DNA of 64,000 nucleotides, taken from assembly GCF_041146795.1 (NCBI RefSeq), contig NC_135177.1, positions 21,736,560-21,800,559 on the forward strand. The letters run 5' to 3'. This document shows positions 34,267 to 42,368 of this stretch, piece by piece. Position numbers and translations under genes: made by a program. Position 1 is the stretch's first letter. Each line of letters begins with the position of its first letter. The notes under the pieces were generated by a model. It ran no database searches and had not been told where the DNA came from. It saw only the letters and a list, made by a program, of their open reading frames with translations. Source of the DNA: Maylandia zebra (lineage: Eukaryota; Chordata; Actinopteri; Cichliformes; Cichlidae).

Positions 34267-35022
34267 TCATTCCCTCTGGAGGAAGAAATAACTTGTGTTG
34301 TTGAAGTGCCTGGCGTCTGTCATCTCTCTCAAAGGCTTTTGTTCCTCATTTTCTTCACTTTCGTTTTCATCACTTGGTGGGTGCTCTTTGTTGCTCTTTG
34401 TAGGGACAAAGGTCACCAAAGCTACTCCTTCTGGGGCAACCGGGACAGAGGGCGAAGGTTGAGATGAGTCATCACAGAGGGTGGTGAAATAAAGACTGTG
34501 CAGTTTAGAGATAAATCTGTCCTTGTGCCTGAATGACAATTTAAAAAAAGAAAAAGAAATATGAAAATGAAGGAGCTGACCGTACATCACATCTTAGAAA
34601 TGACTAATGTTATGTCATAAATCTGCCCTTTTTTGAAGAGATGCATTGAAAGTGCCAATGTCAGTACCCGAAAGTGTAGATGGCCAAAATGACAGACAAG
34701 ATAGCGAATAAACCAACTATCCACAGCAAATGATGTGGCCACTCTTTAGGTTTTGGTGGAGGTTTTGTGGGATCTGTGGTAAAAAAGAAGGGTAGACTGT
34801 GATAAATCTTAACTGAGCAAGACAGCATCCATCTAAATACATCTGAGTGCAACTGAACGTCTGTGTTTGCGTGTAGGTGTGAGGAACCATAACTCCTGAG
34901 GCCTGTTTTTGTTGCAAGCCTGAGTTGTTATGATGACATGGTTTCCTGTTAAAACCCAGGGGGCAGAGGGGATTTTCAGCACTAACAACATTTAAGAGTT
35001 CCCTCTCGTCTTTTGGCTCTCT

Positions 35023-35116
<94 letters not shown>

Positions 35117-38100
35117 TAAGTAACTGTAATATTTCACAGTTTGCATGCCAACTCACCATCATCTGGATATTGATCACCTGAACCTGAACCTGAACCTACG
35201 GGGTAAATAATATATTTTAAAAACATATTAGTAGGATAATAATAAATGATAAACCTGAGATAACAAGGCAAAGTTGTATAAGGCAATTTTAAAAAAGACT
35301 GAAATTGTCCATTTCCTAAAGAACTATGTCAGACTGCAATAAGACATAGTTTAAGTGGTCCCAATAAGCAGACAAGGAGATGTTACAGCAGGGAGGAATA
35401 ACTCCTGGGGGAAAATTATTCTAAACTGAATTCTGCAAACTTTTCAGGTGTTTATAGCTATGTTAGTTCAGAGTTGCCAAGCAGCAAGACTTGCTTCTTT
35501 GGTTGTAAGAAGTTTTGGGTAATTTAGCAGACAAATTCTTTACCAATTAAAAGTCAATATGGCCTAACACTTGCTTTCAAAATAAAAAAGACTATAAATA
35601 ATCCAACATGATAGTGCCTAATCCAGCAGAATCTTGTTTCTCTCTTTCTCTCTCTCTTTTTTTGGAGGGCTGTTTCTTCCTTATTTTAAAAACAGGCTGA
35701 AAGAAGTGACCATTAAAGAGAACAGAGAGTTGGACTGATGTTTAAAAAGAAAGGGTTTTTTCACCACAACGAGGGGAAGTGCACTAATGGTACACGGTCA
35801 ATATCTTGAACCCCTAAGCCACTGAGAAACTTCTTAATAATAATAATAATAATGGATTGGATTTATATAGCGCTTTTCAAGGCACCCAAAGCGCTTGAAA
35901 AGCTATTCATTCACTATTCATTCACTCTCGCATTCACACACTGGTGGTGTAGCCACAGCTGCCCTGGGGCAGACTGACAGAAGCGCCCCTTAAACATCTG
36001 TCACAGGATTTAAAGTTTAATTTCATTCAGCACAAATAAAGTCCACTCAGCTACTTCTGTGAAAACTTACACTCTTGTACTGTGCTTTAATTGAGCATAT
36101 AGAATACTTACTGATAAACTTAAATATACTTATTTATTTTATTTTTAGAGGTGTGTGTGCATATTTATTTACCCGTTGGGGGGCTCACAGGATAAGGTCT
36201 ACTCCACTCACTCCACTGACCATCATGTTCTGCCTTACACCTCAGCTGTATCAGGAAGTCAACGTCAGGTGTAGGAGTCACTACGATGGTGTAGGAGCCC
36301 TCTCCTTCAAACTGCTGTACCAAGATGGACATATACAGGCAAACGTCTCCATTTACTGACACAACAGAGTGTTCAACTTTTCACAACTAAGTAAAACCTT
36401 GTCTACTTACGTTTTCGCTGTGAAAGGAGAGGTTTGTTTCCCCGTATTTGATCTCACAGATGAGTCTAAAATTGTGTGGCTCCTCGAAGTTTGTCGGTAA
36501 ACTCCAGCACACCGTCATCATCGTCGTCATATCCTGTCTTTCCTCCAACGTCGCTGACACGATTGACGGAGGCTGAGGCTTCTCTGAGGGATCAGGGACG
36601 AACATGTAAAGGTCTTGTATGTGGAATAATATGACTAGTTTAAAAGATGACGAATTTGTCTGTAATTTACTTGAATATGAAATATTAGTCAGATACATTT
36701 CACAATTAAATGTTTTGCAATTAGGAGCATTACAACTTATCCAAAGGTACAATAATAAGTCTTTAAATCATTACTAATGTGTTTAATATAAACCAGAAGA
36801 CTTTCCTAAAAATGAAAATATGCTTATTTGTTTTCTTCTTGGGAAATTAGCTAGTATTCCTCTTTCATGTCTGTAGAGCAATTGTGAAAATCAATCAGAA
36901 GGCATCTTAACTTACAGACGGGCAAGATTAACCGATAAAAACAGAACAAAACAAAACATAGACCACAAAGTGGTTTCACTTTCATGTCTAAACTTCGACT
37001 TTAAAGGGAATTTGAAGTATTTAATCTGGGAAGGTGCAACAGGACACTGTTACTCATAAACTTTTTCAACCACTTCATCAACTGGTATCCTGAATGCTGA
37101 GCCAATCTGCACATATTCAAGTCATTCATAGAGGAAGAAAAATTGGAGGCTGTATAAATGTACATGAGAGGATGTTTAAGCAAAGTTTTTCATGAGAAAG
37201 TCTAATCATATGGCACAGAAACAGAAATACTACCTCGTCATGACTCTGTGTCTAGGATGGATCATTTTTCTGATTTTTTTTTCTTGGGTTTGTGTAAATT
37301 TACCTGTCCAGCTCTTAGCATAGGTGGATGGACTCCATTCACTCCATTGTCCATCAAATTCCTCTTTAGCTCTGACTTGTATCAGGTAGTCAACACCAGG
37401 CATTATATCAGTGATGGTTGCTTGCCGCTGGCCATTAACTGGCAGTACCTGAATACATACATATAAGACAAAAATCTCTGAAACAAAACTGCGTTTTCTG
37501 TTTCATGCCAGCGTAATGAACATTGAAAAAAAAAAAAAATACACACTTAGTAGTTTGACAACAGGTGTCTCAGCACTGACCTGTTCGTTGCCAATTGACG
37601 GTTTGACAGGGTTGTATTTAACTTCATAGATCAATTTATAGAAGTTATCTTGCACCTTCCAGGATGTCGGTAAATTCCAGGAGACCGTCAGCCTGTTCTT
37701 CTTTCCTTTCTCCTGTCGGACTGACACATTTGACGGAGGGTCTGGTTTTACTGAGGAGTGGGAACAAACACAGTGAGCACAACTTTAAAGCACTTCAGAA
37801 GGCCAATACTCAGTCCTGTCATGGACACATGTACTTTGACTTGAGCACTTACAAATTTTTAATGGTGTAAAGTACTTAAGGGGGCTGGTGACATTGCCTG
37901 TGATGCTTGTCACACACATGTAGACCAGGTGAGGGGTTCTCCGATCATCCTCAATGTGGTCCAGAGCACACCAACAGCGAGAGAGCCGAGATGAGTATGA
38001 GCATGACACTCGCTTGAATTTCTCTCTTGGACTGAGAGAAGGAAAGGAAAAGAACAGTCAGTCACACAAAGATGGACATAAAGGAAAAGAGAAAGTGGCC

Positions 38101-40271
38101 TACAACAACATTTCTACTACATTAGGCCCATTTACAACTTTCACACTTTTTTCTTTTTCATTTTTGATCTCAAGTAGTTTACTGGAAATAGTATTTATTT
38201 ATGTAACAGCAATGTTAGCATTTTGACTGCACAAGATTACAGAAGTTTTGCAACATACACCAATATTGATCGAGAACAACCACAGTATGCACATTTTTTT
38301 ATCCATGGCTTGCACACATCAGTTTTCCTGTATGTATGTAAATACAGGAGCAAAATATTACTTGATGATCCTTTTAAAACACAACACAAAGCACTCATGG
38401 GGGACTTCAAGTGCAATGAACGTACTTTTTACTCAGCAAGAGGTAACAACTAGGCTGCTTTATGGCGGCTTTCTGAGGCATTCCTTCACAGCGGATTTTA
38501 CTACTGGGCGACTTTTTGTAGCAGAACAGACTGGGAGGCTCAGGAGAATCTAAGAGATAAAGAAGACATGTAAACACACTGTTCACCCATCCATTTTTAA
38601 AAATCAATTATCTAAATAGGGTCCTCTCAGGCTCTACAGCCCTCAGGTAGTTTGTTATATTGTTGGCCTTCATGACAGCACGATTAGAAAAAGACTGAAC
38701 TATGTGTTGTTTTAATGGCTGCCAGGAGAAAGCTTCTACTCTCTTAAAAAGATCATGGCAGCATGACTTAGATTTGCAAAGTGGCATGTAAACAAACCAG
38801 AAGAATTTGGGAACAATGAACTTTGGACAGACGATAGTCACAACACCACGTTTGGTGATGCATATCAGCAACAGTCTGGCACAACAGTGGAGTGATGATC
38901 TGGGCTTGTTATTTAGCCACAGGACCTGGGTGCCTTACAGATATTGAGTCAACCGTGAATACTTCTATGTAAAAAAAAAAGTATTCTAGAGGCAAATGTG
39001 AGGCCTTCTGTTTTACAGCCAAATGTTGACCCATACTGGCTCATGCAACAGGACGACGAGCAAGCACAGCAGCAAAGCTATAACATATCTGAAAAAGAAA
39101 AGAATGGATGTGTTACAATGGCCCAGTCAAAGTCCCGACCTCAGCCTGACTGGTATGCTGTGATGGGGCTTCAGGAGAGCTGTGCATTAGCAGTTCAGTT
39201 CAAATCAATTTTATTTATATAGCACCAAATCACGGCAACAGTTGCCTCAAGGCAAGCTTTACATCGCAAGGTAAAGACCCTAAAACTGCTAAACTGCAAA
39301 ATATTTTTGGTGTCACTATTTAAAATTTGAAATTTGCCCAAAAACATTTAAAGTCACAGTTCACCCGCTGGTTTGTTTACTGATTGTCTATCAGTGAGTC
39401 GTGTGTACAACATCAATCCTGACCCAATGATATACAAGTTCTGAGCTGGATTTAAAAGATGGATTTTAAAGCCATTTGCCTTCCACCTATAGGCTTTTTA
39501 TTTGAAAATGAAAGCATGGATGGAATTATATAACCTTCCTCCTCCATCACAAAGTCCTCACTATGAGAACTCACCTGCAACGATCACCTTTAAGCTAAAC
39601 TTTTCTTTGCCTTTGTGATGACAACTGTATTTTCCAGAGTCTTCCATTCTCAGTGAGGCGAGAGTTAGCGTTGTCCCACTCCTCCCAAATTTAATTTCAC
39701 CCCAGTCCCTGTCTTCTGTCCCCACTGTCATCGTGTTCCACTTCCACTCAGGCATCACTTTTATCCCCCTTGTTACCCGGTTCACTCCTTCCCCCACTTC
39801 ATCCTCTTCATCCTCCTCATAGTCATCCTCAACATCTGTTTCTCCAGTGGTCCAATGAGATTCGTCCTTCAGCGATCGAGTGGCCCTGGTTGGCTGGACG
39901 ATGTGAGGAGAAGTTGTGTACCCTGCATCTGAATATATGAGGCTTCTGTTTCCTCCTGCCTCCGTGAAATGAGGGCTGTAGCCCTCACTTACATTCTTCA
40001 GAGAACTGTCATCACTTTTGACTGAAACTGCACTGTTTTGTATATCATTTGGAGCGGCTGGTGTCCCGTTCGAAGAACCATCCCTTTTGTTGATGTTTAA
40101 GCTGCTTCCCTTCAGACTGATCTTTACACCATCCACCCTCACATGACCGCCACAGGTCAGAAACAGCTTACAGCCCGGCGATAAGACCAACACACCTGGA
40201 GGAGGGTCTGCAGAAAAACACACAAACACAGAATCTGTAGAACTAATAAGAACCAGAATCATTTTTGATGT

Positions 40272-40343
<72 letters not shown>

Positions 40344-42368
40344 AATGTTTGTGATTTGATTGTTCATACAGTGTTTTGTACAAAATGTTAGCTTCTCATT
40401 ATTTTCAGTACTGGTTGTATTTGACTAGGCACAACACAGAGTGACACATTGCATAACCTCCACCCCAACTTCCTCTTTTAACGTGTCTCTCATCTTCATC
40501 ATTTCTTTTCAGTCTTGTATTATTTCTAACATTTCCCGTAATGTTTCAGATTTTCTGCTCAGACCTCACACAGTCACTTATAACCTGACATGTTTTGGTT
40601 TAGTATGACTTGCCTGAACTTGACTGGGTTGAAGTCATAGTTTCATTCCCCTTAGTCTTTAGTAAAACAAATCTTTTTGCTCTTGCCCAGTTAACCGTTG
40701 TGTCTTTTTAAACATCTGATAAGACTTTATCTGATAAATCTGATGGAGACTGAAGCTGAAGCTGATAAGGGCCTGATGTAGAATCAACAGCCACTATGTT
40801 ATATGCTGGTACTGGGTTAGTCCTTCTCTGTTCATACTGACATGATAGCATCACACAGTCGCTATAGAAAGTTATGCTTAATTCAAACTAACTTAAAAAT
40901 AAAAATAAAACTCGATGTGAAAAAAATAGTTACTAATAAAAGTAGACTTTGAAGAAATTGAAATGAGCTTAAATGATTTTGTAAACTTGGAAAACTAACT
41001 AAAATAAAGTAAAATTGGAGAGAAAATATCCTTTTAACATTTGTTAGTTTTGTAAAATTTGTTGTCACAAGTTTCCTAATGAGGCTTTGACTGACTTTTT
41101 TTTTTTAAAACTTGTTACTTGTCACTTTTAAAAAGCTCTCTCTGTCTCTGGTATATGGTTTCCAGACAACAGTCAATAAAGAAACTAAAACTGACATTGA
41201 AACTAATAAAAAAATAAAATTAAAACAAAACATTTTCAGTAAACTGAATTAAAAACAAGAGGTCAAAATAAGATCCACATAAAAACTAAGCTTTCATGCT
41301 GTTTATGTCTGATCCTACCATCCACATGTGCAGCAGAAATTGACACATCACAGCAGCCAATATTTTCTGTCCAGTTTTAATGAGCCCTGTCAATTATAGC
41401 TTCGCTTTCCTCTTTTTAGCTGACAGATGTGCTGCTGCTATAGCCTATATATTTCAACGTTCAATGTGTTGTGCATTCAGAGACCTATACACCTTCATGC
41501 TTCTGTTGTAACTAGTGAATATTTGAGTTGCTGTTTCCTTCCAATCAACCTGAAGCAGTCTGGTCATCCTCCTCTGACCTCCGGCATCAACCAGACATGT
41601 TCACCCAGAGAACTGTCGCTCACCTGATATCTTCTCTTATTTGAACCATTCTCTGTTTACCCTATAGACAGATGTGTGGGAAAATCCAGGCAGATTCTGA
41701 GATACTCAAATTAACCTTTCAAGAATCACGCCACATTCAAAGTCAGCTACATCATCATCTCACATTCGGATGCTCAGTTTGAACTTCGGCAGATCGTCTT
41801 GACCACGTCTACACGCGTAAATCCGCTCAGCTGATAAGACCGGCATACTTGAACAGGTGTACCTAATGAAGTGGCCGATTAATTTTTGTTTGTTTGTTTT
41901 TATATGAATTTTCCTGACTCTGTGCCTATAATATTTATAAAATGTAAAGTTTACAACAAAATAAAAAAAAGCTTGTAAAATTAGCTGCCACAACGCGTCA
42001 TAACATTTCCCAACAGGATAAAAACGCATTTTCCCCGAAAGAACAAAAGCGGAAAGAGCAAGAAAAAAAGCTTACTTTATATATTATCCTGTAATAATAC
42101 AGTCAACTTCGATTAAGTAAATATTTTTAAACGCTGTGATTTTCAGTTAACTCCAAAACTAGACTCCAAAAAATCCTAAATTACAATAACTTTAACTTTG
42201 TCACTAAATTAGCCTAAGTTTTTGTTATTCTTAATAACAAAGAAAACAGATGAAGAAAAAAAATTACATTTAGACAATATGAGAGGAGAGGTTACCTTTT
42301 CTGGGACATGTTCCTTCAAAAACTCCGCTGACCGGAGCGAAGAACAGCAAAAGGAGAAAAATCCCCAT
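34267..42368 (-). CDS. il6r: Interleukin-6 receptor alpha chain with a duplicated WSEWS domain, 11 coding exons
   Basis: Type I membrane cytokine receptor; the family binds IL-6 and then recruits gp130. Exons: 42296-42368 (signal peptide, MGIFLLLLFFAPVSG), 39575-40207 (Ig domain), 38426-38549 and 37853-38031 (first cytokine-receptor domain, paired Cys), 37581-37750 plus 37304-37448 (fibronectin domain ending GQWSEWS), 36411-36583 plus 36173-36314 (a second such domain, again GQWSEWS), 35157-35195 (Gly-Ser stalk), 34668-34773 (transmembrane segment, about residues 573-594) and 34267-34528 (cytoplasmic tail). All phases agree, giving about 681 aa against 468 in human. The tail ends NNTSYFFLQRE, recalling the human NTDYFFPR end. 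The ATG at 42368 is preferred to an in-frame upstream Met at 42503 because it starts directly at the hydrophobic leader. The gene follows atp8b2 on the same strand, as in mammals. The extra domain and an enlarged Ig exon are discussed in the findings. Confidence 0.9.
35024..35115. repeat. (GCAC)n then (AC)n compound microsatellite
   Basis: About 16 GCAC units followed by about 13 AC units. It begins about 40 bases to the left of the small il6r stalk exon, in the intron between the stalk and transmembrane exons. Confidence 0.95.
35840..35990 (-). repeat. SINE-tail-like repeat related to the AFC copies
   Basis: Begins with an AAT trinucleotide run and GGATTTATATAGCGCTTTTC, then CACCCAAAGCGCTT, ATTCACACACTGGTGG, GTAGCCACAGCTGCCCTGGG and CAGACTGACAGAAGCG. 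These parallel the order of segments at 5221-5405 but are more diverged, suggesting another subfamily. It lies in an il6r intron. Confidence 0.65.
36173..36583 (-). other. il6r: Second copy of the il6r D3 exon pair
   Basis: Exons 36411-36583 and 36173-36314 repeat the layout of 37581-37750 and 37304-37448. The first exon of each pair begins with a split codon then KPxPPSxVS, and contains WxLPT and E(V/I)KY. The second contains D(Y/F)LIQ(V/L)R and GQWSEWS. Both pairs enter and leave in phase 1 with a phase-0 intron inside. The acceptor of 36314 is read as GTCCATCTTGGTACAG; an alternative upstream AG at about 36357 would break the phase. Confidence 0.85.
38605..39190 (+). repeat. Decayed Tc1-like transposon in an il6r intron
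   Basis: Segments near 38800-38900 (GAACAATGAACTTTGGACAG and GTTTGGTGATGCATATCAGC) and near 39110-39190 (ATGGCCCAGTCAAAGTCCCG and CCTCAGCCTGACTGGTATGC) match the middle and late parts of a remembered fish Tc1-like transposase gene. Stops and an A run near 38970 break the frame. Ends were not found. Confidence 0.6.
39196..39290. repeat. Interspersed repeat end (TTTATTTATATAGCACCAAAT type)
   Basis: A short block containing ATTTTATTTATATAGCACC, AAATCACGGCAACAG, TTGCCTCAAGGCAAGC and GGTAAAGACCCTA, which I remember as the conserved end of a very common percomorph repeat. A longer, more diverged relative is at 62720-62960. It abuts the Tc1 relic at 38605-39190. Confidence 0.55.
40274..40342. repeat. 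(TG)n microsatellite
   Basis: About 34 uninterrupted TG units in the large first intron of il6r, some 65 bases from the acceptor of the Ig exon. An open frame of His-Thr repeats reading through it is not an extension of the protein, because an acceptor AG separates them. Confidence 0.95.
41500..41890 (-). repeat. Internally deleted Tc1-like relic, antisense
   Basis: Same family as 1-670. Segments GACCTCCGGCATCAACCAG, then CAGATTCTGAGATACTC, TTGAACTTCGGCAGATCG and CTTGAACAGGTGTACC follow the family order on the minus strand and end in the terminal repeat at about 41855-41885 (TGTACCTAATGAAGTGGCC). Most of the transposase is missing. It lies in the first il6r intron. Confidence 0.65.

Follow-up and report, generated by a model that had tools for sequence, protein, structure and literature searches.

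Background

Several cytokine receptors carry more extracellular domains than a single cytokine-binding module. In the gp130 and G-CSF receptors, additional fibronectin-III domains separate the cytokine-binding module from the membrane; these extra domains are not known to carry a WSXWS motif. The leptin, thrombopoietin and LIF receptors have two whole cytokine-binding modules, in which every WSXWS domain has a D2-type domain ahead of it. As described in passages of PMC4858764, the human IL-6 receptor (IL-6R) has a flexible stalk of 55 residues that keeps D1-D3 away from the membrane; classic signalling needs at least 22 stalk residues, and stalk deletions affect shedding too. Among fishes, a conserved topology is given for zebrafish il6r in an excerpt of PMC1963337, and a review lists a soluble IL-6R as known in fugu (PMC4929537).

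We analysed a window of 64,000 nucleotides (C11:21736560-21800559) from the Maylandia zebra genome assembly (962 Mb, 63 contigs); by window we mean this whole stretch. The il6r gene that it contains shares with the mammalian gene a signal peptide, an Ig domain, D2, a D3 with WSEWS, a stalk, one membrane helix and a short tail. It differs in that a second D3-type domain stands between D3 and the stalk, in that the stalk has 28 residues whereas the mammalian one has 55, and in that the Ig exon carries a long acidic insert. Compared with gp130 and the G-CSF receptor, the extra domain of the fish receptor is a copy of its own D3 and has a WSEWS motif. Like the leptin, thrombopoietin and LIF receptors, the chain has more than one WSXWS; unlike them, it doubles only the D3 half of the module.

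Gene structure

In our gene model, il6r lies on the minus strand with 11 coding exons running from 42368 to 34267 and encodes 681 aa; all introns (10/10) start with GT and end with AG. The exons are as follows.

42296..42368, minus strand: exon 1, the il6r start, with the ATG, a GTAACC donor and phase 1; apparent signal peptide by eye
39575..40207, minus strand: exon of the Ig domain, into which a long acidic low-complexity stretch is inserted
38426..38549, minus strand: first exon of D2; IL6Ra-bind match at residues 243-336 and human IL-6R alignment
37853..38031, minus strand: second exon of D2, ending in phase 1 with T as the last base
37581..37750, minus strand: first exon of copy 1 (canonical D3); F373 is the F229 equivalent
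37304..37448, minus strand: second exon of copy 1 (canonical D3); F424 is the F279 equivalent; GQWSEWS
36411..36583, minus strand: first exon of copy 2 (D3'); first bases AG, which would give TAG if spliced to the D2 exon
36173..36314, minus strand: second exon of copy 2 (D3'); His529 at the F279 position; GQWSEWS
35157..35195, minus strand: stalk exon containing SGSGSG
34668..34773, minus strand: remaining stalk and transmembrane exon; by eye, what looks like a membrane helix starts at residue 575
34267..34528, minus strand: cytoplasmic tail exon with the stop, as placed by the gene model

Copy 1 (37304-37750) and copy 2 (36173-36583) each encode a complete WSEWS fibronectin-III domain. The first-pass annotation had described them as two tandem WSEWS exon pairs with the same layout and without a stop or a broken splice site, and the gene model agrees on each point: each of the four exons has an open frame and is preceded by AG and followed by GT, the phases are 1-0-1 in each pair, and the shared motifs that it listed are present with small variations. 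The ectodomain order that it predicted, Ig-D2-D3-D3', is upheld as well.

Three other exons deserve a comment. The Ig exon (39575-40207, minus strand) encodes 211 residues, and its acidic low-complexity part, which includes EEDEEDE, lies inside the Ig domain at roughly residues 65-178; the Pfam matches to Ig are weak and below threshold (residues 179-226). The 39-nt exon at 35157-35195 (minus strand) encodes SGSGSGDQYPDD, a stalk that resembles a flexible linker, and could be removed in frame to leave 668 aa. In the interval 34661-34773 (minus strand), the transmembrane exon is followed by a weak donor, CGG/GTACTG, with a score of -2.3 in an approximate matrix. Read-through past this donor adds YTFGY and then an immediate stop, so that a retained intron here would give an anchored receptor with almost no tail.

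Identity as an IL-6 receptor alpha

We compared D2 and both copies, as a single query of 310 aa, with solved structures. The best seven matches were all IL-6R (E from 1.2e-31 to 5.5e-28), followed by CNTFR (6.9e-19). The alignment with human IL-6R covers D2 and copy 1 and ends a few residues inside copy 2, and for this reason we regard copy 1 as the canonical D3. Note that D3 alone does not separate the two receptors, as copy 1 by itself matches CNTFR with 5.6e-16 and IL-6R with 1.4e-15. Pfam finds a single IL6Ra-bind domain (PF09240, E 2.8e-13, residues 243-336) that passes the cut-off. With this domain, and with D2-D3 closest to human IL-6R among solved structures, the name il6r given in the first pass is supported.

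The D2 cysteines C245, C256, C287 and C298 align with the human ones and give the two expected pairs, and D3 closes with a WSXWS motif, which reads GQWSEWS in both copies. In the C-X-W motif of D2 there is Gly instead of Trp (CEG). An IL-6 receptor alpha has exactly one D3, whereas two D3-type exon pairs are present here. They do not amount to two whole cytokine-binding modules, since copy 2 comes directly after copy 1 and Pfam shows one IL6Ra-bind stretch. The Pfam fn3 model has one match in the protein, which is copy 1 (42.9 bits; human D3 reaches 28.0 bits). For copy 2 there was no fn3 match at E up to 10, in a search in which the filters of HMMER remove the majority of matches beyond an E of about 0.1.

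Splicing of the two copies

It had been claimed that a transcript could include both pairs, or either one alone, without a frameshift. For copy 2 this is correct: when it is skipped, the frame and the membrane anchor are kept and the product has 576 aa. Copy 1 also has a multiple-of-three length, but here the claim breaks down, because the D2 exon ends ...ATT T and copy 2 begins AG AAG..., so that the new junction reads TAG. The product would have 336 aa and no membrane anchor. By direct reading, an alternative AG two bases further on in copy 2 would give TAA. The use of copy 2 alone is thus ruled out by the junction codon, and the further suggestion that a choice between the copies yields isoforms with different ligand geometry fails, since skipping copy 1 creates a stop codon.

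If any one of the four copy exons is removed by itself, the frame shifts and the membrane anchor is lost. Removal of the two middle exons (37581-37750 joined to 36173-36314, minus strand) gives an in-frame hybrid, D3a/D3'b, of 575 aa. The possible remaining options are therefore D3' present or absent, or the hybrid. As a stop codon arises when D3 is skipped, D3' would be unable to replace D3 and could be present in addition to it, be left out or contribute half of a hybrid.

We propose, with a probability of roughly 0.6, that the D3 exon pair of il6r was tandemly duplicated long ago, that copy 1 binds the ligand and that copy 2 is included as a spacer. The duplication would have been a single step of about 1.15 kb. 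Transcripts would normally contain copy 2, whose product would fold as a third fibronectin-III domain; D3' would thereby hold the elbow of D2 and D3 further from the membrane and extend the spacing given by the short stalk of 28 residues. The spacing provided by D3' would then be the counterpart of the unstructured 55-residue stalk of mammals. By analogy with these, a folded membrane-proximal spacer appears to be the likeliest role of D3'. If copy 2 were left out, the receptor should still be anchored, with a stalk longer than the human minimum of 22 residues; since the stalk after copy 2 has 28 residues, the 22-residue rule would be satisfied whether or not D3' is present.

It is also conceivable, although rather unlikely, that copy 2 is an alternative cassette and that the gene produces both a form containing D3' and a form lacking it, by which reach and shedding would be tuned. 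Both copy 2 exons can be skipped in frame with the anchor and the 28-residue stalk intact, and the last donor of copy 2 scores 2.5, below the 4.6 and 4.8 of the copy 1 donors. However, these scores come from a simple, approximate matrix, in which the constitutive D2 donors are lower still (1.8 and 1.5). Symmetric phase-1 borders are expected for this class of domain, and for this reason the skippability of copy 2 is no evidence of skipping.

Contact residues

According to passages of PMC4919466, the site I cavities of IL-6 are filled by F229 and F279 of IL-6R; binding is lost when F229 is replaced by Val or Ser, and F279 contributes 20% of the interface. In our alignments (human residue numbering from the 1n26 chain), both hot-spot residues are present in copy 1, where F229 aligns with F373 and F279 with F424. 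Copy 2 has F480 and H529 at these positions. Note that the F279 position depends on the aligner, as MAFFT puts a gap beside F279 while phmmer pairs F with F. With both residues in place, copy 1 appears equipped for IL-6 binding, whereas copy 2, with His at the F279 position, is short of one of the two anchors. From the sequence we infer that copy 1, together with D2, would bind IL-6 as it does in mammals.

These residues also bear on the idea that D3' is a contact domain, which forms a second elbow with D3 or touches gp130 or another cytokine. Copy 2 retains WSEWS and the F229-equivalent Phe, it has cysteines of its own, and dN/dS between the copies is below 1 (see the following section). With the F279 equivalent replaced by His and with no second D2-type domain ahead of copy 2, we consider this reading improbable.

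Three cysteines (467, 484 and 525) occur in copy 2, whereas copy 1 has none. With an odd number of cysteines in this extracellular domain, a disulfide-linked dimer could form.

Origin and age of the duplication

The two copies are identical at 42 of 102 aligned residues (41%), and a shuffle test (z of 17.5-19 against 200 shuffles) rules out that they are similar by chance. Their nucleotide identity is 56% (172/306); this value and the protein identity rule out a recent duplication or an assembly artefact. Between 36100 and 37800, the direct DNA repeats of greatest length (69 nt with 75%, 60 nt with 70% and 36 nt with 78% identity) match exon to exon, and the 36-nt repeat extends a few bases into the introns. 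We did not see any long match between introns among the direct repeats within 36100-37800. The absence of such a match supports the earlier statement that the duplication is not recent.

Could copy 2 have come from another cytokine-receptor gene, for example as a prolactin- or leptin-receptor-like exon pair? When copy 2 alone is compared with solved structures, the prolactin receptor is the best match (E 4.1e-7), the leptin receptor is also among the top matches and IL-6R stands at 0.012. Moreover, in a domain tree with prolactin and leptin receptor rows, copy 2 joins the leptin receptor (94/94), a grouping flagged for long branches. Without these rows, copy 1 and copy 2 form a pair (98/96); when only the prolactin receptor is added, the tree does not show this pair, yet the pairing is not rejected (p-AU 0.231). 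Such small domain trees are unstable: their outcome depends on the rows of the prolactin and leptin receptors, which have long branches. We give these trees little weight. Copy 1 is clearly the better partner in the pairwise scores, where it is the best of the seven sequences compared with copy 2 (174; the next is human PRLR with 102.5). A search of the fish's own genome with copy 2 returned five rows, four of them il6r itself and the fifth with an E of only 0.45, and similarity at the DNA level is still present between the copies. We therefore hold a foreign origin to be very improbable.

The divergence between the copies is dN 0.54 and dS 1.43 by NG86, and dN 0.58 and dS 1.54 by YN00, which corresponds to a dN/dS of about 0.38. 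At the residues that the copies share, 24 of 39 codons are identical, compared with 14.1 expected from the codon usage of the gene (binomial P 0.001). In 14 older paralogue pairs, which are non-independent, the pooled proportion is 74/206 (one-sided Fisher p 0.003 against 24/39). Two of these pairs also reach half or more identical codons (11/20 and 7/13), so that dating by codons is noisy. For the prolactin-receptor-like loci on C7 and C12, named by resemblance and presumed to be a teleost-duplication pair, the proportion is 16/36, which does not differ significantly from 24/39 (two-sided Fisher p 0.17). As a rough estimate, these values suggest that the duplication postdates the separation of the receptor genes and is of about the age of the teleost radiation or somewhat younger. 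Gene conversion could bias the dating.

In a neutral simulation with 0.75 substitutions per site, the frame and the four splice dinucleotides stayed intact in 1 of 4000 runs started from copy 1 and in 0/4000 started from copy 2; with 0.2 substitutions per site they did so in 44/4000 and 95/4000 runs, respectively. This argues that copy 2 is maintained by selection. Since neutral change so rarely keeps the frame and the splice sites, both copies are probably in use. That copy 2 is a relic outside mature transcripts, for which one may cite its lower similarity to other receptors and its lack of a Pfam match, is hardly credible in view of an open frame and four GT/AG sites intact despite a dS of about 1.4-1.5, a state that was kept in only 0-1 of 4000 runs at 0.75 substitutions per site.

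Relation to other teleost receptors

The IL-6R of Megalobrama amblycephala (blunt snout bream, a cyprinid) is given a long ectodomain, residues 1-491 of 598 (excerpt of PMC8880141), which is similar to that of the receptor described here; its extra length might stem from a duplicated D3, from an insert in the Ig domain or from the stalk. The il-6ra of yellow catfish is depicted with a single FN3 (excerpt of PMC7959794), which is not decisive, because a Pfam-type search would miss copy 2. A survey from 2026 puts IL6R and gp130 jointly at "three to four FN3 domains" (excerpt of PMC13203501), and this count could include a duplicated D3. A duplicated D3 is not stated in the passages on teleost IL-6R that we read; the D3-D3' layout may already be annotated as normal for teleost il6r.

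A more far-reaching and doubtful scenario is that this fish lineage swapped most of the flexible, mammal-type stalk for a second copy of the receptor's own D3, which would provide receptors with two different reaches and a hybrid that, without F279, might serve as a weak or decoy receptor.

Pfam-type domain diagrams can miss a domain of this kind, as fn3 detects copy 1 and human D3 and misses copy 2. In human cells, the distance between the binding domains and the membrane decides on IL-6R signalling and shedding, as stated in passages of PMC4858764. The fish receptor, which has a shorter stalk and would have gained a folded domain, would provide a natural test of this human distance rule.
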